A stretch of DNA of 46,668 nt from IMG/VR virus record IMGVR_UViG_3300035204_001443, positions 1 through 46,668 of that record; one strand, 5' to 3'. Source of the stretch: a virus. A program made the translations under genes and the position numbers. The notes beneath the pieces were generated by a model that ran no database searches, was not told the origin of the DNA, and saw nothing but the letters and a program-made list of their open reading frames with translations. Below are positions 3,593 through 45,565 of this stretch, piece by piece; positions within the stretch are counted from its first letter, which is position 1; each line of letters begins with the position of its first letter.

Positions 3593-4507
3593 TCACTGTC
3601 TAGGTGTCTTACTAAACGGCACATCCATATCAATCAAACTATCTGTAAGTAAGTCAATATGAGATAGACGAGTAGGATTAATGTCAATACCACCACGTCT
3701 AGCATAAAGACAAGTAACAGCCAGTTCCGTAGGCTCGAACGTGTCCCAGAGTCTCTTATAGATCGTCTCTGCGATTTCCTCATGAAAATGATTTTCGTCT
3801 CTAAATGAGACAATATATTGTAATAGGTTTTTTGGTCTAACTACCTTTTTACTCTTCATCGCGATATATACATCACCCCAATCTGGCTGATGTGTAACGC
3901 GACAATTAGACTTTAATAGGCTACTATGATACCGTTGATCAACTAAGTAAGGTTGATCTATAATATAATCCTCAGCAAGTAATTCTGGCGACTCATTGTA
4001 TACATTAAATGCTAAGTCTCTACAATCACTCCATGTTTCTAGTGTGTTATAGCCTTTGTGAAAGTATGGTTTGGTTGGACCTACTTCTTCCGGGGCAAAA
4101 ATGGTCACCTGTACATTTGTCTCTAATAATTTCGATAAGTCCTCTTCAGTATGATACTTAATGAGATCCCGAGCTTGATCAGCGGTATCACCTAGCTGGG
4201 TCATATTGAATGAGTTAAAATACAGCTTAAGAGACTTTGATTCAACAATGTACTTATTATCGCAAGGATATACAATCTTAGCAATACCAGTAACAGGAAA
4301 GCCTTTTTTTGTCAGGCATGACACTTCATACGCATTCCAGATATCATATCCACAGAATGGTAGATTATTATCATTTAGATCTAGATGGTCACGATTACTC
4401 TGTCTAGGTTCTCGTACGAGAATTGAAGAGTCGTATTGATCTGGATAGTCCACGGTCTTACCGAGAACTTTACTAACGTTAGAATTATCTAATTGTGCTG
4501 TGCTCAT
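3593..4507 (-). CDS. queF: NADPH-dependent 7-cyano-7-deazaguanine reductase QueF (bimodular type)
   Basis: QueF reduces the nitrile of preQ0 to the primary amine of preQ1. The 304-residue length matches the bimodular E. coli type. Clear family motifs are the substrate-binding ESKSLKLYFNSFN at residues 89-101, the catalytic cysteine in LKSNCRVTHQPDWGD (Cys202), the FHE of SFRDENHFHEE (241-243), and RRGGIDINP (270-278). It is the last gene of the minus-strand operon that begins with the dpdA-like gene, and its start overlaps the kinase gene by 23 nt. Its presence means preQ1 rather than only preQ0 is a likely product. Host queuosine salvage is the alternative use, but the dpdA neighbour favours DNA modification. 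Confidence 0.95.
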   Translation of the reverse strand: MSTAQLDNSNVSKVLGKTVDYPDQYDSSILVREPRQSNRDHLDLNDNNLPFCGYDIWNAYEVSCLTKKGFPVTGIAKIVYPCDNKYIVESKSLKLYFNSFNMTQLGDTADQARDLIKYHTEEDLSKLLETNVQVTIFAPEEVGPTKPYFHKGYNTLETWSDCRDLAFNVYNESPELLAEDYIIDQPYLVDQRYHSSLLKSNCRVTHQPDWGDVYIAMKSKKVVRPKNLLQYIVSFRDENHFHEEIAETIYKRLWDTFEPTELAVTCLYARRGGIDINPTRLSHIDLLTDSLIDMDVPFSKTPRQ

Positions 4508-5048
4508 ATTCTTCTATTGCTATTTTAATATCTTCAAATCGTTTATCAAGGTTATCAGGGTATAAAGTTACTAATTTTCCTTTGTATGGCTCGCAATAGG
4601 CCTCTTGATATAATAGCATTGTCATATTATTAGCTATATCTTTCTGAAAACTCTCATTAGTGCTTCGTTCTCCATCATCTTCCATCTCTAACGGACAACA
4701 ATAGAATATAATATCTAAATCATGAACAATATCATTAAATGTATTCCATGCATACATATACGTCTCTTCATTTACTTTTTGGTTATTAAATAGCCATTGA
4801 GTATATATGTAGCCGTCAATGATACATCGATCCATAATAACATTATCTAGTTTATTATTTTTAATATGAGCATCAATTATAGCTCGTTGAGTCTCATCTC
4901 CACCATCCTCGTTAATGGGTAGACCTTTACGGGCAATAGGTCGAGTAACTTCGGTCACATATTCAAACTTATCACCGTAGTACTCTTGACACATCTTGAG
5001 TAACGTACTCTTTCCTGAACATCCTGTACCTGTAAATGAAATTTTCAT
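4485..5048 (-). CDS. P-loop kinase/ATPase (AAA_28, NadR-kinase-like)
   Basis: A 187-residue single-domain P-loop protein. The Walker A is GTGCSGKST at residues 7-15, and a conserved aspartate lies in VIMDRCIIDGY, as in small nucleoside or nicotinamide riboside kinases of the AAA_28/thymidylate-kinase type. The substrate cannot be told from sequence. It is related to the 39308-40042 protein. It sits between small unknown genes and queF in the modification operon, so a role in handling nucleotides or modified bases is possible. Its own promoter-like sequence (TTGAAA-N16-TAAAAT) lies 6 nt upstream of the ATG, with no Shine-Dalgarno sequence. Confidence 0.75.
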   Translation of the reverse strand: MKISFTGTGCSGKSTLLKMCQEYYGDKFEYVTEVTRPIARKGLPINEDGGDETQRAIIDAHIKNNKLDNVIMDRCIIDGYIYTQWLFNNQKVNEETYMYAWNTFNDIVHDLDIIFYCCPLEMEDDGERSTNESFQKDIANNMTMLLYQEAYCEPYKGKLVTLYPDNLDKRFEDIKIAIEEYEHSTIR

Positions 5049-5052
5049 TATT

Positions 5053-5229
5053 CTATTTTAACATATTTTCTACGAGTTTCAACGCATCCATTCTTTCATC
5101 TGTTCGCCTACAATGCATATTACCATGAGCCATCTTCACTACAATTTTGAGAGCATTAACTTCAACTTCGTGGAGAGGGGATGGATGTGTTTCTTTTCCA
5201 GCTAGTTTATATTTTTTTTCTTCGTGCAT
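5053..5229 (-). CDS. Small hypothetical protein (58 aa)
   Basis: A short, lysine- and histidine-rich protein of no recognised family (HEEKKYKLAGKETHPSPL near the start). I chose the ATG at 5229: it overlaps the stop of the upstream DUF1599 gene as TAATG, and GGGGA lies 5-6 nt upstream. A start four codons earlier at 5241 is possible. Placement between two operon genes with a one-base overlap at its start supports a real gene, but nothing indicates its function. Confidence 0.5.
   Translation of the reverse strand: MHEEKKYKLAGKETHPSPLHEVEVNALKIVVKMAHGNMHCRRTDERMDALKLVENMLK
5055..5082 (-). promoter_or_regulatory. Sigma-70-like promoter before the kinase gene
   Basis: On the minus strand this reads TTGAAA (5077-5082), a 16-nt spacer, then TAAAAT (5055-5060), with 6 nt to the ATG at 5048. 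It lies inside the end of the upstream small gene. The architecture is the same as at the other early promoters of this window and predicts a leaderless mRNA. Confidence 0.5.
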
Positions 5230-5573
5230 TATTTTCCCCATTTACCATTAACTACAATCTGTGCAATAATCCCATATACAGACAAATCCTTAAATGCATC
5301 TTCTACAGGCTCGTTTTGTGCCTTAGCTTTTCTTCTAAGAACCAAATTAAAAAGTCTCTGAATCTTGTCGTTAATTCTAATAATGATTGCAGTAATAGAC
5401 AGATGACAGTTGTCGGGATCAGACAGATCCATACCAAGGGTAATGTTATGTTGTCCGTAATCGTACTGCTTTTTACAGAACGTATCATACTGTTCTTTTT
5501 GTATTTTTTTAAATTCATTGCACGTCTCTGGATACGTCTTTTCAATTTCTCTTACTATTTTTCCATGATTCAT
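5229..5573 (-). CDS. DUF1599 family protein (nucleotide modification associated domain)
   Basis: A 114-residue protein with the hallmarks of the DUF1599 family: FCKKQYDYGQHN in the first half, then the hydrophobic/basic helix IIIRINDKIQRLFNLV and the C-terminal EPVEDAFKDLSVYGIIAQ. The family has been linked to phage nucleotide and base modification systems through gene neighbourhoods; its activity is not known to me. Here it lies in an operon with dpdA-like, formyltransferase and queF genes, which fits that link. The start is inside the end of the small upstream gene (32-nt overlap). The family call is from motif memory and should be checked by profile search. Confidence 0.7.
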   Translation of the reverse strand: MNHGKIVREIEKTYPETCNEFKKIQKEQYDTFCKKQYDYGQHNITLGMDLSDPDNCHLSITAIIIRINDKIQRLFNLVLRRKAKAQNEPVEDAFKDLSVYGIIAQIVVNGKWGK

Positions 5574-5694
5574 AATGCTTAATTAGTTTTTCTTCTGACA
5601 TTGTTTTATAACCAGTACAACCATAATAAACAAGGGTAAATATATCTGACGGTTTTAATATTTTAGAATCTCGCTTAGATAAGTCATTTCGCAT
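5542..5694 (-). CDS. Small conserved-looking protein (50 aa)
   Basis: A short reading frame from the ATG at 5694 to TGA at 5542, encoding a 50-residue protein that begins MRNDLSKRDSKILKPSDIF and contains LVYYGCTGYKTMSEEKLIKHY. The frame stays open upstream past the ATG (reading NYTPEQIEK), so the true start may be a non-ATG codon a little earlier, near the end of the formyltransferase gene. It fills the otherwise empty gap between the formyltransferase and DUF1599 genes and overlaps the latter by 32 nt. It contains no catalytic motif I recognise. Similar small proteins seem familiar from marine T4-like phages, but I cannot name a family. Confidence 0.6.
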   Translation of the reverse strand: MRNDLSKRDSKILKPSDIFTLVYYGCTGYKTMSEEKLIKHYESWKNSKRN

Positions 5695-5719
5695 TTTTTC
5701 TATTTGCTCTGGTGTGTAA

Positions 5720-6247
5720 TTAATCGCTAAGCCTGTTTGTTAGAAATTCTGACCACATATCAACTGATAAATCATGTAGGTTACTATAAACCTGATCTAA
5801 TGGCAACCCTTTAATTTCAATACTACCTTCTTTAAGAATTTTACCAGCATCTACTTCTGCTACTGCTTCATGTATAACACAGCCAGCAATTTCATGTCTA
5901 GAGTAAAATGCTTTCTTTTGAGGGTCTTTTCCTTTAAGCTCCGGCCACTTTGTAATAAGTCCTGGGTGACCATTGTATATAGTTCTATTTTCACAAACTT
6001 CGCCGGGTACAATTCTTAGCCAACCGTGCATTGTAACTAGTGCATCTTCTGGAATATGTTGCAAGTATTCTTCAACTGTTGGCTTTTTATCAGTAAAGAT
6101 GATTGGTACTTTACCGATAAGATGTTCGTTTATACTTTCAAAACCATCTTGTCTATTACAGAGAATCATATCAGGATACCTACCGATTCTTTCCGATATC
6201 TGATAAATTTCAGACCCTGTTTGCGAAAATAATGTATACCATTTCAT
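5720..6247 (-). CDS. Formyltransferase (PurN/Fmt-like fold), candidate dPreQ1 formyltransferase DpdN
   Basis: A 175-residue protein with the formyl_trans_N core. The catalytic Asn-x-His is in TIYNGHPGLITKWP (Asn92, His94) and the catalytic Asp in AEVDAGKIL (Asp133), the triad that 10-formyl-tetrahydrofolate enzymes such as PurN use to formylate a primary amine. It is shorter than typical PurN (about 210 residues) and lacks the glycine-rich phosphate-binding start of that enzyme. It lies in one operon with a dpdA-like gene and queF, whose product preQ1 carries a primary amine. A phage dPreQ1 formyltransferase, DpdN, has been predicted for N-formylated dPreQ1, and this gene fits that role by fold and context. 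GAR transformylase is the alternative. Confidence 0.8.
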   Translation of the reverse strand: MKWYTLFSQTGSEIYQISERIGRYPDMILCNRQDGFESINEHLIGKVPIIFTDKKPTVEEYLQHIPEDALVTMHGWLRIVPGEVCENRTIYNGHPGLITKWPELKGKDPQKKAFYSRHEIAGCVIHEAVAEVDAGKILKEGSIEIKGLPLDQVYSNLHDLSVDMWSEFLTNRLSD

Positions 6248-6618
6248 TTTTTGTAATTACCTTTCTCTGGAATAACGTTTCGAACACCACCAGCTGGATC
6301 ATATGGCGTACCGTTTTCAAATCTTCCTAAGTCACCTTCTCTCCTCGGTATAAGATGTACATGAGGGTACATTACAGTTTGGCCAGCATGTTCACCCATA
6401 TTCATACCGATATTAAACCCATCACAAAAACCTTCTTTGACAAGTGCTTGGCCTTGCTTATATGCACCGAGAAAGCATTTATCTAAATATACTTCATGAT
6501 CTTCTACAGGCACGAAAAGGAGGTGACCTTCTGTTACAGGGTATTTGTCCCTATATACATGATAGTGATTAGTTTCACTAATTGGATCAGACCACGGATA
6601 ATTCTTTTTCTTTGTCAT
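6244..6618 (-). CDS. HIT family protein (nucleotide phosphohydrolase/transferase)
   Basis: A 124-residue HIT-domain protein. The core strand and helix (VTEGHLLFVPVEDHEVYLD) are followed by the HIT motif as YPHVHLIPRR at residues 84-93. Compared with the usual H-x-H-x-H-x-x motif, the first histidine is a tyrosine, while the nucleophilic middle histidine (His86) and the third (His88) are kept. HIT enzymes act on dinucleoside polyphosphates or AMP/GMP adducts. The gene is locked between the dpdA-like gene (32-nt overlap) and the formyltransferase gene (4-nt overlap), so it is translated with them. Its substrate is unknown; a role in nucleotide metabolism of the modification pathway is an inference. 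Confidence 0.82.
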   Translation of the reverse strand: MTKKKNYPWSDPISETNHYHVYRDKYPVTEGHLLFVPVEDHEVYLDKCFLGAYKQGQALVKEGFCDGFNIGMNMGEHAGQTVMYPHVHLIPRREGDLGRFENGTPYDPAGGVRNVIPEKGNYKK

Positions 6619-7423
6619 ATCTACCTAAAATATGTTTGAACATTTTAGTATTGTACAATACGTCGTCAAGCTCATCTGTATCAACATTTGCATTAATTAA
6701 ATTACAGAGCATTGTTGAGGGTTTTTCTTGCAGGCCAAGATCACTATTATATCTTAACCCTTTGAGACTCGCCACAATAGGATTAGATGTGTCACAACTA
6801 CGAATATTAGTAATGTTTTTATCAACGTAATACCTAAATTCTTTGGCTAAACTACATCCGAGTAGATGGTGAGGTTTAGACCAATTCCAATATCCTTTAT
6901 CAATTAGATCTTGAATAAAGCGCTGCCGACCAGAGCACCACAACTCAAGTTTATCTCTACCGTATCCTGTATATTTATAGTAAGAATAATCAAAACTAAT
7001 AGCAATATAATCTGATTCTTCTGACATGAATTTATAGCAATCAATTAAATCCTGCCATGTTTTACCTTGAACTACTCCAATCTTAAGAGATTTATTATTT
7101 GGTGGTTGGTAATTATATTCCCAATCTTGCCATTGTTGCATAGTACCAGTAGCGTCTTCTAGAACATCAGGTACAATATAATAATTTGGATTAATCTCTT
7201 TAAGCCAATGTGCGTATCTTTTCGGGTCAAATGATTTACCCAGTTCAAATATACTATTATCTAGTAGAACGTCTGCTCCAAATCTCTTATTAACTGTAAG
7301 GAACCAATCCCGGTACTCTTCACTTTCTTCCATTAAATGAACCAAGCAATATTGATAATCATTGTAAGATAATGATGCTTCGAAGAGCTGAATCGGTGAT
7401 TCATGGGATACTAATAATTTCAT
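6587..7423 (-). CDS. dpdA: DpdA-like DNA guanine transglycosylase (TGT fold)
   Basis: A 278-residue protein with the order of motifs found in tRNA-guanine transglycosylases and their DNA-acting DpdA relatives: the general acid region DVLLDNSIFELG (Asp55), YIVPDVLED (Asp86), the base-recognition IGVVQG (residues 115-120, matching the GIVQGG of TGT), a HHLLGCS segment, and the nucleophile region IRSCDTSNP (Asp211). It lacks the C-terminal zinc site of bacterial TGT and is much shorter, as phage DpdA proteins are. DpdA exchanges guanine in DNA for a 7-deazaguanine. It leads the operon that ends with queF, behind a near-consensus sigma-70 promoter. Which DpdA subfamily it belongs to I cannot say. 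Confidence 0.82.
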   Translation of the reverse strand: MKLLVSHESPIQLFEASLSYNDYQYCLVHLMEESEEYRDWFLTVNKRFGADVLLDNSIFELGKSFDPKRYAHWLKEINPNYYIVPDVLEDATGTMQQWQDWEYNYQPPNNKSLKIGVVQGKTWQDLIDCYKFMSEESDYIAISFDYSYYKYTGYGRDKLELWCSGRQRFIQDLIDKGYWNWSKPHHLLGCSLAKEFRYYVDKNITNIRSCDTSNPIVASLKGLRYNSDLGLQEKPSTMLCNLINANVDTDELDDVLYNTKMFKHILGRYDKEKELSVV

Positions 7424-7429
7424 ATACTA

Positions 7430-7457
7430 ATTATAAAGCTTTACACAGGAAGGTCAA
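7430..7457 (-). promoter_or_regulatory. Strong sigma-70-like early promoter of the DNA modification operon
   Basis: On the minus strand: TTGACC (7452-7457), 16-nt spacer, TATAAT (7430-7435), then only 6 nt to the ATG at 7423. The -35 lies within AGCTTGACCTTCCT, also present before 17152 and, as AGCTTGAACTTCCT, before queD. No Shine-Dalgarno sequence can fit, so a leaderless transcript is predicted. Confidence 0.85.
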
Positions 7458-9031: not shown

Positions 9032-11605
9032 ATGTCAGAGAGAGTAAGCAATGTACACCCTAGTGCGAAATCGCGGAAGACGCGCCGGAAAAAGTTTTAT
9101 GGAAACTATCTAGGTATTGTTGTACAGAATGACGATCCAGAGCAACGGGGGCGAGTTAAAATCTACGTACCTCACATTAGTGTAAAATTATACGGTAACT
9201 GGGATGATTTAAAAGAAGAAAAGACAAAAGATAAAAAGACATTTAAAGATAAAAAATTTAAAGCTTTAGGTTCCAATGTATCTCCAGAACTTACTAACGT
9301 TATAGATGAAATAAAACCGAGATTGCCCTGGGCTGAATGTGCATCACCACTAATGGGTGAATCAAGTAGTGGACGATATAATGCTAAAACAGAGCTGGGT
9401 ACTATTTCTGATAGTGCAAGATTAGAGACATGTAGCACCTCGACATCAGAAGATGTTAATACGAAATATAAATTAAATGAGGAAGGGTTAGGTGAAAGTC
9501 CTGGTTATTTATATGAAACAGAAGCGGCTCCGCTTGAAGATGCATTTTCGAAAACATTTTCTCAAAGTGATAAAAGAGATAAAACTAGCTTTCCCGTTAA
9601 CGTCAACAAATTAACAGCTCAATGGAAACCAAGTACATATAGTAATAGATGTAAAGGTATATTTTCGGTACCTAGTGTAGGTAGTCATATATGGATATGG
9701 TTTGAAGGTGGTAATCATATGAAGCCTGTATATTTTGCGGTGTCTCACGGTAAAGAAGACTGGCGAGGTATTTATGAGAGCTCAGATGATGATCATGGGG
9801 TCGACTATCCTGGTACATATGAAAATAAAAGTGGTCGAGATGATTCAACATATAACCACAATACAGAAACATATCGTAATAAATTTGTATTCAATCAAAA
9901 AGGAGCAGCTATAGAAATATGTAGTACAGATAATCGAGAGCTATTAAAACTAACTCATTATTCAGGCTCGTTCAAAGAGTATAATAATAAAACTACTAAG
10001 GAATTAGCAACGAACAATCATGAAACGTTTGTATTAAATGACTCATTTTCTACAGTTAGAGGTTCAAGACAAGATAGTGTTGATGAAGAATTTGATCTTC
10101 TTATTAGAGGGGATCATTATCGCAGAGTCGGTACATTTAATAAAAGTAGGTTTTTAGAGTGGCAAGGGTTAGTAAGAGATTTAGCAAATTTTAAACAATA
10201 TTTTGAGGTAGCGCGCTGTAATTATGTTGAACCTGAAGTAGGTGACTTTCAAGCTCAGTCTCCTGGTCAATTACGAGTACCGGCTCCCGGTACTGATGGA
10301 TTTGCACAATGTCCAATGTGTACAGCACCTGTTGCGAAAATGTGGAAGGATGTTAATACTGGTCTAACACTTTTAAATACACCTATCATTAATTCTACTA
10401 ATGCTGGTCACACAACAACAAACAATACAGTATATACAAATTACGTTGCACCGCCTGGCGGTGCAAATCCGGCAACCTTTTCATGGGCACTTCCAACCGG
10501 TGGTAAGTCTGATTTTCTCCAGGACGGAAATTGCCCGTTGTGTGGAGGGACAGGTCTAAGTACATCTTCTCTAAACGGTACTTGGAGTGATCAAATTCAT
10601 AATCCTGAAACGGGTGAATCAGCATCAAAAGATGCTTTGATATGGGAAAAGGAGAAGCTATTAACAGACATCCTAGTACCTATTGAAAAGGAAATGGGAT
10701 TAGGTGGTAGTGAGATGGTACACATTACCAAGCATAAACTCGAGACAATAGGATTAATGATGAACGATTACCCATGTGTTCGAATTGATCCAATTGGTAA
10801 ATTAGAACGTAATGGAATGTTAGTGCTACCCGGGGGTGTTGTTGAAAATATGGCGCCGTGTTCACTTCTTGAAGAGGTTCATGTTGATGACTTACCTGGT
10901 GGTACTTATACATTAGATGTATGTAATAGATTTAATACCTACGTAGGTGCGGGCGGTATTAGCTTTAAGACTGTTGGTAATATGGAGATAGGTGGAGCTA
11001 AAGTTACTATTACTGGGGAACAACTCAATTTAGGTTCTCGCAATGAAATAAACATCAATAGTAGCCGTGTTAGTATTGTGGCAGATATATTATCGCTAAG
11101 ACAGAAAAACTATGAACAAGTATTTGTTGACAGCAGTTTAGGTATATCAAAGAATCTGGTCGTTGGAGGTGGTGCACACATTGAAGGTGAACTGTCATGT
11201 CATCATATTACTGCGCCTGTAGAAATTCAAGAAACAGAACAAACAGACTTATATGGTCAACTATTGAATGGTCTGTCATTTGATGTCAACATTTCCGGTG
11301 GCACTCACACAGACGCAGCAAACTCAGCAGACAATCACGATAGCTGGACAGGTGCTAAGATCACATTAACTGCTGACAGTACTCACGATTTAGTTCGAAT
11401 GTACGCACACAGTCATCAATTCAAGAATGTTCCATTACATCTAATGAAGACGAGTAGCGATGTCCGTGCAATAGGTAAAGATTGTGTTGTGGACGGATCA
11501 CAGCCAAGACGTGAACGGGTTCCAGCTAAACCTGTTGAGAATCAATGTAAAGGTAATAACACAGACGGTGAAGGGCTAGAATCGTTAGGTGAAACTATAA
11601 GCTAA
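9032..11605 (+). CDS. gp5: Baseplate hub/spike protein, gp5-like (OB-fold)
   Basis: An 857-residue protein. The N-terminal OB-fold signature (YLGIVVQNDDPEQRGRVKIY) and the later SVPSVGSHIWIWFEGG match the gp5/VgrG-type hub domain of contractile tails. The C-terminal third, with repeated short strands and glycine turns, could form a beta-helical spike. I see no clear T4-lysozyme domain, so cell-wall digestion is not supported. An unusual part is a CPMC (Cys427, Cys430) and CPLC (Cys501, Cys504) pair that could bind zinc. The ATG at 9032, 1 nt after the preceding stop, is preferred over an upstream TTG at 9008. The 3' end overlaps the convergent dCMP deaminase gene by 11 nt. Confidence 0.78.
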   Translation: MSERVSNVHPSAKSRKTRRKKFYGNYLGIVVQNDDPEQRGRVKIYVPHISVKLYGNWDDLKEEKTKDKKTFKDKKFKALGSNVSPELTNVIDEIKPRLPWAECASPLMGESSSGRYNAKTELGTISDSARLETCSTSTSEDVNTKYKLNEEGLGESPGYLYETEAAPLEDAFSKTFSQSDKRDKTSFPVNVNKLTAQWKPSTYSNRCKGIFSVPSVGSHIWIWFEGGNHMKPVYFAVSHGKEDWRGIYESSDDDHGVDYPGTYENKSGRDDSTYNHNTETYRNKFVFNQKGAAIEICSTDNRELLKLTHYSGSFKEYNNKTTKELATNNHETFVLNDSFSTVRGSRQDSVDEEFDLLIRGDHYRRVGTFNKSRFLEWQGLVRDLANFKQYFEVARCNYVEPEVGDFQAQSPGQLRVPAPGTDGFAQCPMCTAPVAKMWKDVNTGLTLLNTPIINSTNAGHTTTNNTVYTNYVAPPGGANPATFSWALPTGGKSDFLQDGNCPLCGGTGLSTSSLNGTWSDQIHNPETGESASKDALIWEKEKLLTDILVPIEKEMGLGGSEMVHITKHKLETIGLMMNDYPCVRIDPIGKLERNGMLVLPGGVVENMAPCSLLEEVHVDDLPGGTYTLDVCNRFNTYVGAGGISFKTVGNMEIGGAKVTITGEQLNLGSRNEININSSRVSIVADILSLRQKNYEQVFVDSSLGISKNLVVGGGAHIEGELSCHHITAPVEIQETEQTDLYGQLLNGLSFDVNISGGTHTDAANSADNHDSWTGAKITLTADSTHDLVRMYAHSHQFKNVPLHLMKTSSDVRAIGKDCVVDGSQPRRERVPAKPVENQCKGNNTDGEGLESLGETIS

Positions 11606-39304: not shown

Positions 39305-39312
39305 TATTTATT
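39305..39312 (-). promoter_or_regulatory. Late promoter AATAAATA
   Basis: Minus-strand AATAAATA with 5 nt to the GTG start at 39299, overlapping the final codons of the upstream kinase gene. Confidence 0.65.
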
Positions 39313-40042
39313 GATAACCCTTGGGATTTTTAAAGGCTTGTGACTGAGAATCTGAAACTCCTAGCTTATCTTTCATGATTTCAATTTCATTAAGTTCACT
39401 CTCTGACATTAAACTACTTGAATCATCAATAGCGTTACCTTCTGCGTCTATATAGAGTTTAGCCATTTGAAGCCGTTCCTCTGGGTAACCGAAAAGTTCA
39501 ATAATTGCAGGTTTATCGCGAGGGTCAAAGAATTTTGAATCGTGATTTACATCCCAATCCCGCTTTACTGCCTTAAGAATATTATCAATCTCTACTCTAT
39601 AATTCTCATCTACAAGGCCTTTTTCTTTATTTGCAAGAAATTCTTCAGTGTCATATTCGAGTTTAGCTACTTTAGTTAACGGGATATAAAAAACAATATC
39701 AACAAGCTTTAACGTCTCTCTTACGACAGAAATACATTTTTCAACAAACTCATCATCAACACCATCAACTTTGTTACTATAAGCCCAAAGAGTTGATGCA
39801 ATATTGTCTAACACACCTCTATCGTATATAACATTATCATCTTTATCATGGCGTTGATGTTCATCAACCATACTATTTAAAATGTCCCACTGAACATCTT
39901 TGGTTGTTTTCATTCCCCACTCATCGCCTAATGAATCACGATAAGTTTTTTTAGGGGTTTTATAGATAGGCCATTCTTTAAGAAAGTCTTTAATGAATGT
40001 GGATTTTCCTTGGCTGCAAGTACCGGTTACACAAAGTCGCAT
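39308..40042 (-). CDS. P-loop ATPase/kinase (AAA_28-like)
   Basis: A 244-residue protein with Walker A GTCSQGKST (residues 7-15) and VIYDRGVLDNIASTLWAYSN, which parallels VIMDRCIIDGYIYTQWLFNN of the 187-residue kinase at 4485-5048. It is longer by a C-terminal part with the helical SESELNEIEIMKDKLG segment. The substrate is unknown; NadR-like or thymidylate-kinase-like phosphorylation is the family expectation. A TTGATA-N16-TAATAT promoter-like sequence lies 5 nt before its ATG, in line with early expression, while the next gene downstream is under a late box. Confidence 0.75.
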   Translation of the reverse strand: MRLCVTGTCSQGKSTFIKDFLKEWPIYKTPKKTYRDSLGDEWGMKTTKDVQWDILNSMVDEHQRHDKDDNVIYDRGVLDNIASTLWAYSNKVDGVDDEFVEKCISVVRETLKLVDIVFYIPLTKVAKLEYDTEEFLANKEKGLVDENYRVEIDNILKAVKRDWDVNHDSKFFDPRDKPAIIELFGYPEERLQMAKLYIDAEGNAIDDSSSLMSESELNEIEIMKDKLGVSDSQSQAFKNPKGYQ

Positions 40043-44241: not shown

Positions 44242-44249
44242 TATTTATA
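44242..44249 (-). promoter_or_regulatory. Late promoter TATAAATA
   Basis: A perfect minus-strand TATAAATA, 7 nt before the ATG at 44234. It overlaps the end of queE, so the switch from early to late genes occurs at this point. Confidence 0.85.
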
Positions 44250-45093
44250 CTCCTGTGGTCTGATTCCACGCAGAAATGTGTAATCGTGTCATACCAACAT
44301 ATCCATATTTTTTAGCCATTTGTAGACAGAATTCTGTTCTTTCATGAAAATTATCTTGATGATCCAAACCAGGCATCATGATAACCCTATCAGCAGGGAT
44401 TTTGAGAGGTCTAATAAAATCATTTTCAATTTCTTTCATATCATGCTCTTCGCTGACTACAAATTTAAACCAATAATTGCTATGACTCATAATACGCTTA
44501 AGTGACATAGCACAAAATCGCTTTGCGTGAGGCATTCCGCTATTAGATAGCTTAACACTACAGTTAATTTGATCTAGCTCATCAAAGAGATCGGGATCAA
44601 TCCATTGAGTACCGTTAGTCTCAATTTCATTGAATATTGGTAAGTTGTGATATTTGCATAACTTATTACCGTTGTACTTTTTGTTGAGGTAATTGATACA
44701 ATTAACAATGTCTCGTTGATGTTTACGTAGTGTTGGCTCACCTCCAGTCCATACAAGATGAACTCTCCCGTTTAATACCCAGTTTAGGATGCCTTCCTTC
44801 TCCCAATCTTCAATTAAAACATTAATATCTGTCCGATCACCACAACGCCATACAGCTTCTGAATCACACCACCAAGTAGCTTTACCACTTTTCATTAAAG
44901 CACCCTTACTACCACCACACATTAAATTACAACCTTTAAGTCTAATAAAATATGCTGGATATCCCGTTGATGAACCTTCACATTGTACGGAGTAGAAAGA
45001 TTCAGAGAGTGACAACGTCGGGTTTTCGGTCGTCGTACTCGAGGATTCCTTTATGTCTTGCATATGTTTTGATTTCGTTGTAGTGTTGCTCAT
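44245..45093 (-). CDS. queE: 7-carboxy-7-deazaguanine synthase QueE (radical SAM)
   Basis: QueE converts 6-carboxytetrahydropterin to 7-carboxy-7-deazaguanine with SAM, Mg2+ and a 4Fe-4S cluster. SFYSVQCEG corresponds to the usual F-x-S-x-Q-G-E-G (one Gly is Cys). The cluster cysteines are in KGCNLMCGG and WWCDSE: from the ATG at 45093 they are Cys55, Cys59 and Cys76, so C-x3-C-x16-C with an insertion of about 14 residues. VWTGGEPTL is the SAM glycine-rich motif and EIETNGTQ follows. The exact start is uncertain (ATG at 45093, or 45063); both overlap queD. Confidence 0.93.
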   Translation of the reverse strand: MSNTTTKSKHMQDIKESSSTTTENPTLSLSESFYSVQCEGSSTGYPAYFIRLKGCNLMCGGSKGALMKSGKATWWCDSEAVWRCGDRTDINVLIEDWEKEGILNWVLNGRVHLVWTGGEPTLRKHQRDIVNCINYLNKKYNGNKLCKYHNLPIFNEIETNGTQWIDPDLFDELDQINCSVKLSNSGMPHAKRFCAMSLKRIMSHSNYWFKFVVSEEHDMKEIENDFIRPLKIPADRVIMMPGLDHQDNFHERTEFCLQMAKKYGYVGMTRLHISAWNQTTGV

Positions 45094-45565
45094 AAAAATT
45101 ATCTTTTTCTCTCTGTGGTATCTCTGTATAGCACAACTCAGTCCAACAATTAGGTGTTTCAAATATCTTTACACTGCTAACATCAAGCATTGGATAATCT
45201 TCAAACAATATTTGTTCTGCTAATACAACTTCACGTGCAATATTTTCAACTGACGGGTTACAATACTCACCTTTACCGTTAAGACTCATTAACCATAATT
45301 TAGTTTTGAGGCTCTTAACAGTATTAATTACATATTCGTCTTTTGGATTGAGAAGCATTCCATGATCCAACAAATCATCAATCCATTGACAACCAACTCG
45401 CTTAATTTCTTTGAAGTCTAGTGCGTATCCAATATCTTCCATGGTATTAAACTCAAAGGTTAACTCATATAGATAGGTATGACCATGAAGATTGAAGCAT
45501 TTGTATTGCTCATTCATGACTCTGTGACCAGAGTCGAAGTTTCCTTTACGAGTTATGTATTGCAC
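45002..45565 (-). CDS. queD: 6-carboxytetrahydropterin synthase QueD
   Basis: QueD makes 6-carboxy-5,6,7,8-tetrahydropterin from 7,8-dihydroneopterin triphosphate, the first committed step to 7-deazaguanines. Zinc ligands are His14 in FDSGHRVMN and His27/His29 in NLHGHTYLYEL, with the catalytic Cys23 (YKCFNLHGH). Length 187 exceeds the minimal family (about 120) by a middle and a C-terminal part. The start is GTG at 45565, 6 nt after a TATAAT box, so a leaderless message is predicted. The end overlaps queE by about 90 nt, an unusually long overlap. Confidence 0.93.
   Translation of the reverse strand: MQYITRKGNFDSGHRVMNEQYKCFNLHGHTYLYELTFEFNTMEDIGYALDFKEIKRVGCQWIDDLLDHGMLLNPKDEYVINTVKSLKTKLWLMSLNGKGEYCNPSVENIAREVVLAEQILFEDYPMLDVSSVKIFETPNCWTELCYTEIPQREKDNFYEQHYNEIKTYARHKGILEYDDRKPDVVTL

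Follow-up and report, generated by a model that had tools for sequence, protein, structure and literature searches.

Locus and gene content

The DNA analysed here is the IMG/VR virus record IMGVR_UViG_3300035204_001443, taken at its full length of 46,668 nucleotides (nt) and called the window in the following. The record is a 46.7-kb fragment, so that little can be concluded from a gene being absent. On its minus strand, positions 3593-7423 hold eight closely packed open reading frames (ORFs), which a first-pass annotation made from the letters alone had read as a 7-deazaguanine DNA-modification operon. Place, strand and order of the ORFs were confirmed. In the direction of transcription, the following features were assigned (aa, amino acids; TGT, tRNA-guanine transglycosylase):

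7430-7457, minus strand: promoter-like site TTGACC-16-TATAAT ahead of the operon (11/12 matches)
6587..7423, minus strand: predicted DpdA-family (TGT-fold) guanine transglycosylase, 278 aa (phrog_19058, fold, aspartate motifs)
6244..6618, minus strand: HIT-family protein, 124 aa, with HVHL motif (PF01230, 3.5e-9, above cut-off)
5720..6247, minus strand: formyltransferase of the 10-formyltetrahydrofolate type, 175 aa, predicted preQ1 N-formyltransferase (DpdN-like; PF00551, 1.3e-8)
5542..5694, minus strand: 50-aa ORF
5229..5573, minus strand: DUF1599-like all-alpha protein, 114 aa (phrog_1485, 2e-14)
5053..5241, minus strand: 62-aa ORF
4485..5048, minus strand: P-loop (deoxy)nucleotide kinase, 187 aa (AAA_28, 1.9e-9, above cut-off)
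3593..4507, minus strand: QueF, bimodular NADPH-dependent preQ0 reductase, 304 aa (PF14819, PF14489, TIGR03138)

Neighbouring genes of the operon overlap by 4-32 nt or are separated by 4-25 nt, and the stop codon of the QueF gene abuts that of a convergent gene on the plus strand. The promoter-like site, earlier described as near-consensus, is indeed the best σ70-like match within the surrounding 5 kb, in which the total number of promoter-like sites is not above that of shuffled sequence. For the HIT protein, the formyltransferase and the kinase, the families given in the first-pass annotation were recovered above the Pfam cut-offs; the DUF1599 protein remained below its cut-off (DUF1599/Nmad1, 16.5 vs 25 bits) and was matched by phrog_1485 only. 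The 50-aa and 62-aa ORFs had no homologue in the 236 related loci surveyed below and are thus placed outside the conserved unit. Numerous independent lineages share the gene order, far more than chance would give. The operon lies in T4-like surroundings (major head protein, portal, ribonucleotide reductase), and the host group of the virus is aquatic bacteria.

The 278-aa transglycosylase

A Pfam search with the 278-aa protein gave no match. The protein matches phrog_19058 at 7e-51, a family labelled 'unknown function'. Its AlphaFold (AF2) model reached a predicted local distance difference test score (pLDDT) of 90, and in a fold search with this model the best 50 PDB matches listed were all TGT (E 3e-8). 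Among the viral fold matches are proteins from Cellulophaga phage phiST and from Vibrio phage nt-1; a DpdA2 is encoded by the latter (PMC6884629). When the protein is aligned jointly with 9g-type DpdA, its putative catalytic residues D54, D85 and D210 match D72, D114 and D215 of the 9g protein (as printed, LLDNSIF/FLDSGAF, VPDVLED/VLDGIGD and CDTSN/CDSSS for the 278-aa protein and 9g, respectively). The catalytic-aspartate motifs are kept in 232-233 of 237 relatives, and the zinc motif CxCxxC of TGT is absent in all 237.

A search of the 278-aa profile against the PDB chains gave no sequence-level match. Aligned by hhalign to the single 9g DpdA sequence, the profile obtained a probability of 2% with the wrong region aligned, and to a single E. 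coli TGT a non-significant E of 0.024 (probability 2%), the expected motifs being approximately aligned. Since searches by sequence only were not significant, the TGT/DpdA assignment rests on the predicted fold and the motif alignment. On these grounds, the protein is a transglycosylase that falls with DpdA within the TGT family and may act on DNA, which bears out the DpdA-like identity first proposed. Identity as a tRNA TGT, which would have spoken against that proposal, was ruled out by the missing CxCxxC motif and the lack of a Pfam TGT match. A scan of bacterial genomes found relatives on only five contigs of metagenome-assembled genomes; hence, the family is essentially viral.

QueF, the formyltransferase and the preQ0 pathway

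QueF matches PF14819 (5.6e-36) and PF14489 (2e-22) above both cut-offs and TIGR03138 at 4.5e-79, just under the cut-off (266 vs 293 bits). It carries SNCRVTHQPDW and FHEE, which contain the catalytic Cys, Asp, His and Glu of the nitrile reductase, and the NADPH motif ESKSLKLY. This motif, in the form E(S/L)K(S/A)hK(L/Y)(Y/F/W), is present in 198/203 QueF relatives and separates QueF enzymes making 7-aminomethyl-7-deazaguanine (preQ1) from the archaeal amidinotransferase QueF-L. As the NADPH-binding motif is present, the QueF of the window is taken to be a preQ1-making reductase, in agreement with the first-pass annotation. In the RefSeq entry of Flavobacterium phage vB_FspM_immuto_2-6A (NC_055915, hereafter immuto) and in further RefSeq phage entries, QueF goes under the label 'GTP cyclohydrolase', a name likewise given to phrog_5949, and the preQ1 step is thereby concealed.

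The formyltransferase scores above the cut-off of Formyl_trans_N (PF00551) and keeps the catalytic pattern NGHPG...VDAG; N-x-H...D is found in 172/184 of its relatives. Because the catalytic residues are kept, the predicted base is formyl-preQ1 and not plain preQ1. PreQ1, or its deoxynucleoside form in DNA (dPreQ1), would be the substrate, to judge from the linkage to QueF and DpdA.

Two further genes of the 7-deazaguanine pathway were found in the window, 38 kb from the operon and adjoining each other:

45002..45565, minus strand: QueD, 6-carboxytetrahydropterin synthase (PF01242, 2.2e-26; TIGR03367, 2.8e-16)
44245..45162, minus strand: QueE-like radical SAM enzyme (phrog_2076 'QueE-like', 2.1e-42)

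Both complete cultured phages and all larger relatives examined (at least 112 kb) encode QueC, QueD and FolE, except that FolE is missing from one of 127 kb (G012). The 7-deazaguanine pathway is supported by QueD and QueE in the same window. Thus, the preQ1-type base of the first-pass annotation stands as regards the pathway, and plain preQ1 gives way to the formylated form.

The kinase and the DUF1599-like protein

The kinase matches phrog_2107 (thymidylate kinase) at 2.5e-19, its profile aligns over the full length with thymidylate kinase structures (1e-5), and the P-loop is present in 218/219 relatives. By these sequence matches it is a member of the thymidylate/deoxynucleoside monophosphate kinase family. 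A paralogue lies outside the operon:

39308..40042, minus strand: second kinase of the same family, 244 aa (kinase profile A3, 4.4e-10; AAA_28, 4.9e-4, below cut-off)

Most large relatives also have such a paralogue, often within a few kb of QueD.

A fold search with the DUF1599-like protein gave no significant match; the MazG-fold proteins YpjD and RS21-C6 appeared only at E > 2. By its position among the genes, the protein is a candidate pyrophosphohydrolase of deoxynucleoside triphosphates (dNTPs), namely dGTP.

Neighbourhood survey

IMG/VR scans and one bacterial-genome scan yielded 236 loci with a DpdA of the window type. These form 123 lineages at 90% identity, and the 109 with at least 3.5 kb of downstream sequence were used for the counts. 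As a control, 9g-type DpdA was processed with the same models (86 loci, 60 lineages, 54 of them with enough downstream sequence).

Beside the window-type DpdA, a kinase was found in 105 of the 109 lineages, QueF in 100 and the formyltransferase in 90; no other partner of this DpdA subfamily is as constant as the kinase. DUF1599 (42 lineages, including the window, which was entered by hand), a MazG/PRA-PH protein (32) and a protein with a dATP/dGTP diphosphohydrolase domain (11; PF18909, 3e-20) never occur together, and in neighbouring clades DUF1599 and the diphosphohydrolase take the same slot of the operon. GMP reductase is encoded inside the operon in 16/109 lineages (NF003966, 331 bits, just below cut-off), and a gene resembling xanthine-guanine phosphoribosyltransferase (XGPRT) lies within 6 kb in 36/109. 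When whole records were searched, XGPRT-like genes were detected in 17/22, among them that of Campylobacter phage CP220; PF18909 was found in none of the 22 records and in none of the controls.

The four lineages without kinase (L130, L150, L154 and L243) also lack QueF and the formyltransferase, and three of them are very divergent. In the divergent L154 (IMGVR_UViG_3300032296_003307, 269 kb), DpdA stands beside QueC, QueD, QueE, FolE and XGPRT, with no kinase nearby.

Around 9g-type DpdA, FolE (53 of 54 lineages), QueC (51), QueD (49) and QueE (46) predominate. A kinase was seen once (22 bits), and hydrolase, salvage, formyltransferase or QueF genes were not found around it in any of the 54 lineages. 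By numbers the contrast with this control is overwhelming (Fisher's exact test: kinase, p ~7e-37; hydrolases, p ~4e-25), although the p values are to be read as a guide only, since the lineages are related. The association of kinase, hydrolase and salvage genes with this DpdA subfamily is new here.

Among 50,697 cultured phage records, the closest homologues of the kinase were found only in 17 Campylobacter, 4 Flavobacterium and 28 Streptomyces phages, the first two being the groups which carry window-type DpdA. A permissive search with the immuto kinase added more Streptomyces phages, three Rhodococcus phages and one Acinetobacter phage. We therefore discarded the view of the kinase as a general T4-like gene, its homologues being mainly in Campylobacter, Flavobacterium and Streptomyces phages; more than 1,300 cultured records have a long match to the T4-like head protein of the window, and the closest kinase homologues are not there. 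In Streptomyces phage Samisti12, the kinase is located in an ordinary replication region.

Comparison with known systems

In immuto, the genes for DpdA (44% identical), formyltransferase (48%), kinase (30%) and QueF (45%) follow each other in the same order and on the same strand as in the window. HIT and DUF1599 are missing from it, and QueD, QueE, FolE, XGPRT and a MazG-type hydrolase are encoded directly upstream, whereas QueD and QueE of the window are 38 kb away.

Campylobacter phage CP220 is a Firehammervirus, a genus which we take to be the Campylobacter group carrying 2'-deoxy-7-amido-7-deazaguanosine (dADG). Its gp056 belongs to the same DpdA subfamily as the window protein (42% identity, phrog_19058) and is directly followed by the kinase gp057 (32%); QueC, QueD, FolE and the XGPRT-like gene lie elsewhere in the genome. 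In contrast to the window, the cluster has neither QueF nor a formyltransferase. According to the passage of PMC6884629 that cites Crippen 2019, a group of Campylobacter phages carries dADG. Hutinet 2019 counted the dADG Campylobacter phages among those in which no DpdA was found, and synthesis of a modified dGTP had been proposed (PMC6884629). Annotated as hypothetical, gp056 (L002:5986-6777) is of the same transglycosylase family as the DpdA of the window and is likely the missing dADG inserter of these phages. Directly upstream of it, gp055 (L002:4868-5899) fuses an HD phosphohydrolase domain to a P-loop kinase and is possibly another dGTP-handling enzyme.

The DpdA of Enterobacteria phage 9g (DpdA1) shares with the window protein the TGT family, the catalytic aspartates and the linkage to preQ0 genes. 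However, the two are only ~16-19% identical, and the 9g gene has only preQ0 genes as neighbours, without kinase, hydrolase or salvage genes. In 9g and CAjan, at most ~27-32% of G is replaced (PMC6884629).

With regard to nomenclature, the window genes are candidates for DpdA3 and DpdN, whose descriptions they fit; the link to DpdA3 runs through shared membership with CP220 gp056 in phrog_19058. In the work of Cui et al. 2023, DpdA3 is said to go with complete guanine replacement, and DpdN is reportedly a predicted dPreQ1 formyltransferase giving fdPreQ1.

Proposed function and level of the exchange

Taken as a whole, the operon is best explained by replacement of guanine in the phage DNA with 7-(formylamino)methyl-7-deazaguanine (formyl-preQ1), which we regard as probable. 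The identities of the enzymes, the operon and its conserved association were established by computation. The formyl-preQ1 base and the role in guanine replacement are much firmer than the level at which the exchange takes place. Where the first-pass annotation spoke of some guanines being replaced, replacement as such stays the probable reading, and its extent may be complete, since Campylobacter phages noted for heavy substitution by dADG carry a DpdA of this subfamily. Resistance of the modified DNA to restriction is plausible from published work (PMC6884629).

In the proposed mechanism, FolE, QueD, QueE and QueC (FolE and QueC seen in larger relatives) would turn GTP into 7-cyano-7-deazaguanine (preQ0), and QueF would reduce it to preQ1. 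The formyltransferase would formylate the aminomethyl nitrogen, either on the free base or after insertion. The transglycosylase would swap guanine for the deazaguanine and release guanine, which in relatives XGPRT and GMP reductase may recycle. The nucleotide pool would be the target of the kinase and of a dNTP hydrolase, the latter being DUF1599-like in the window and a dGTP diphosphohydrolase or MazG in relatives.

The kinase and DUF1599-type genes, listed and left unused in the first-pass annotation, suggest together with the salvage genes of relatives a mechanism in the nucleotide pool, where base exchange, or at least control of dGTP, would take place. In its full form, DpdA would exchange the base on free deoxyguanosine nucleotides (e.g., dGMP) before replication, the kinase would bring the product to the dNTP, and hydrolase and salvage enzymes would keep dGTP low; we give this roughly an even chance. 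Acting on dGMP or the nucleoside, the transglycosylase would call for exactly such a set: a kinase, an enzyme yielding dGMP from dGTP, and a way to dispose of the freed guanine. On finished DNA, by contrast, the exchange requires no kinase, and a fall in dGTP would impair it. Further, the kinase is kept without QueF and formyltransferase in CP220 of the dADG group, which argues that it serves the exchange and not the tailoring of the base.

Exchange may instead follow replication, on finished DNA as with 9g-type DpdA; formyl-preQ1 would still be made, and kinase, hydrolase and salvage genes would belong to ordinary nucleotide supply. We consider this a serious possibility, if somewhat short of an even chance. 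All characterised DpdA act on DNA, and dpdA mutants of CAjan lose the modification (PMC6884629). The window protein shares family and catalytic residues with 9g DpdA, and the kinase paralogue elsewhere in most of these genomes indicates general uses of the family, as in Streptomyces phages. Post-replicative exchange leaves unexplained, however, that the kinase is the most constant partner even where QueF and formyltransferase are absent, and that 9g-type DpdA has next to no kinase, hydrolase or guanine-salvage genes around it. Depletion of dGTP would also hinder the prior synthesis of G-containing DNA.

Several points weigh against exchange on nucleotides. Cui et al. 2023 are said to have concluded that 7-deazaguanines are inserted post-replicatively, a conclusion at odds with the nucleotide-pool mechanism suggested by the present neighbourhood. 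In infected cells, dADG phosphates reportedly escaped detection by Crippen et al. 2019. To our knowledge, the characterised members of the TGT/DpdA family all have a polymer, RNA or DNA, as their substrate. The role of DUF1599 as a dNTP hydrolase is read from gene position, its fold search being non-significant and its Pfam score below cut-off. GMP reductase would drain GTP needed by FolE; kinase and hydrolase could simply supply dNTPs, such kinases having general uses. Net charge and isoelectric point, taken as a sign of DNA binding, showed a small difference which did not separate nucleotide from DNA enzymes. Finally, the base in the DNA of the window phage is itself a prediction from the genes.

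Regarding the base, the formyltransferase might be a PurN-like gene of purine biosynthesis, in which case the DNA would carry plain preQ1. PurN is its best curated match, yet at a score far below the cut-off (36.9 vs 150.1 bits), and the formyltransferase is tied to QueF and DpdA in 89/109 lineages and never occurs in the 9g-type set, which makes this improbable. An operon altering host or phage tRNA through the queuosine (Q) pathway, or competing for Q precursors without modifying DNA, is very improbable: QueF, QueD and QueE do belong to that pathway and some phages have been suggested to raise Q in tRNA (PMC6884629), but in the transglycosylase both the zinc site and a match to the tRNA-TGT family are missing, phage DpdA proteins are among its closest viral fold matches, and tRNA modification would hardly call for a formyltransferase, a kinase and dNTP hydrolases.

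Some phages replace all of their guanine; by exchange on finished DNA this should be hard to achieve, with each G of either strand having to be reached. Exchange at the nucleotide level would explain complete replacement. It would amount to a complete pathway parallel to that of 2-aminoadenine (Z) genomes, with PurZ, MazZ and DatZ: in both, a dNTP hydrolase would feed dGMP to the modifying enzyme, followed by phosphorylation and use by the polymerase. Chemistry and enzymes differ, and the likeness is an analogy only, with no homology claimed for PurZ. If true, the reaction of a classic RNA-modifying fold would extend to small molecules, and a possible enzymatic source of 7-substituted deaza-dGTPs for DNA labelling would be at hand. 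CP220 gp056, the kind of gene missing from Campylobacter phages in the 2019 survey, gains a likely function, and through this neighbourhood complete guanine replacement becomes directly testable in a cultured phage.

Further observations

A search for riboswitches and tRNAs found none in the window. Homologues of the HIT protein occur only in the closest relatives, L004-L006 and L069, the last being a second copy of the L005 contig. In Microcystis phage Mel-JY01 (L065), a DUF1599 homologue (5791-6345) is 44% identical to that of the window and lies ~3.5 kb from an IMP dehydrogenase/GMP reductase gene (9832-10929); the search for window-type DpdA gave no match there.

Additional enzymes are inserted into some of the related operons. 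Between DpdA and the formyltransferase, one lineage encodes a protein of the flavin-dependent tryptophan-halogenase family (L039:8801-10384; PF04820, 2e-75), which may halogenate the modified base. Two close relatives of the window have an enzyme of the ornithine cyclodeaminase/mu-crystallin family between the formyltransferase and DUF1599 (L005:9395-10321, PF02423 2e-70; L006:9906-10826). A twitch-domain radical SAM protein is located between kinase and QueF in two others (L021:11446-12765, NF033640, 302 bits; L047:10566-11891).

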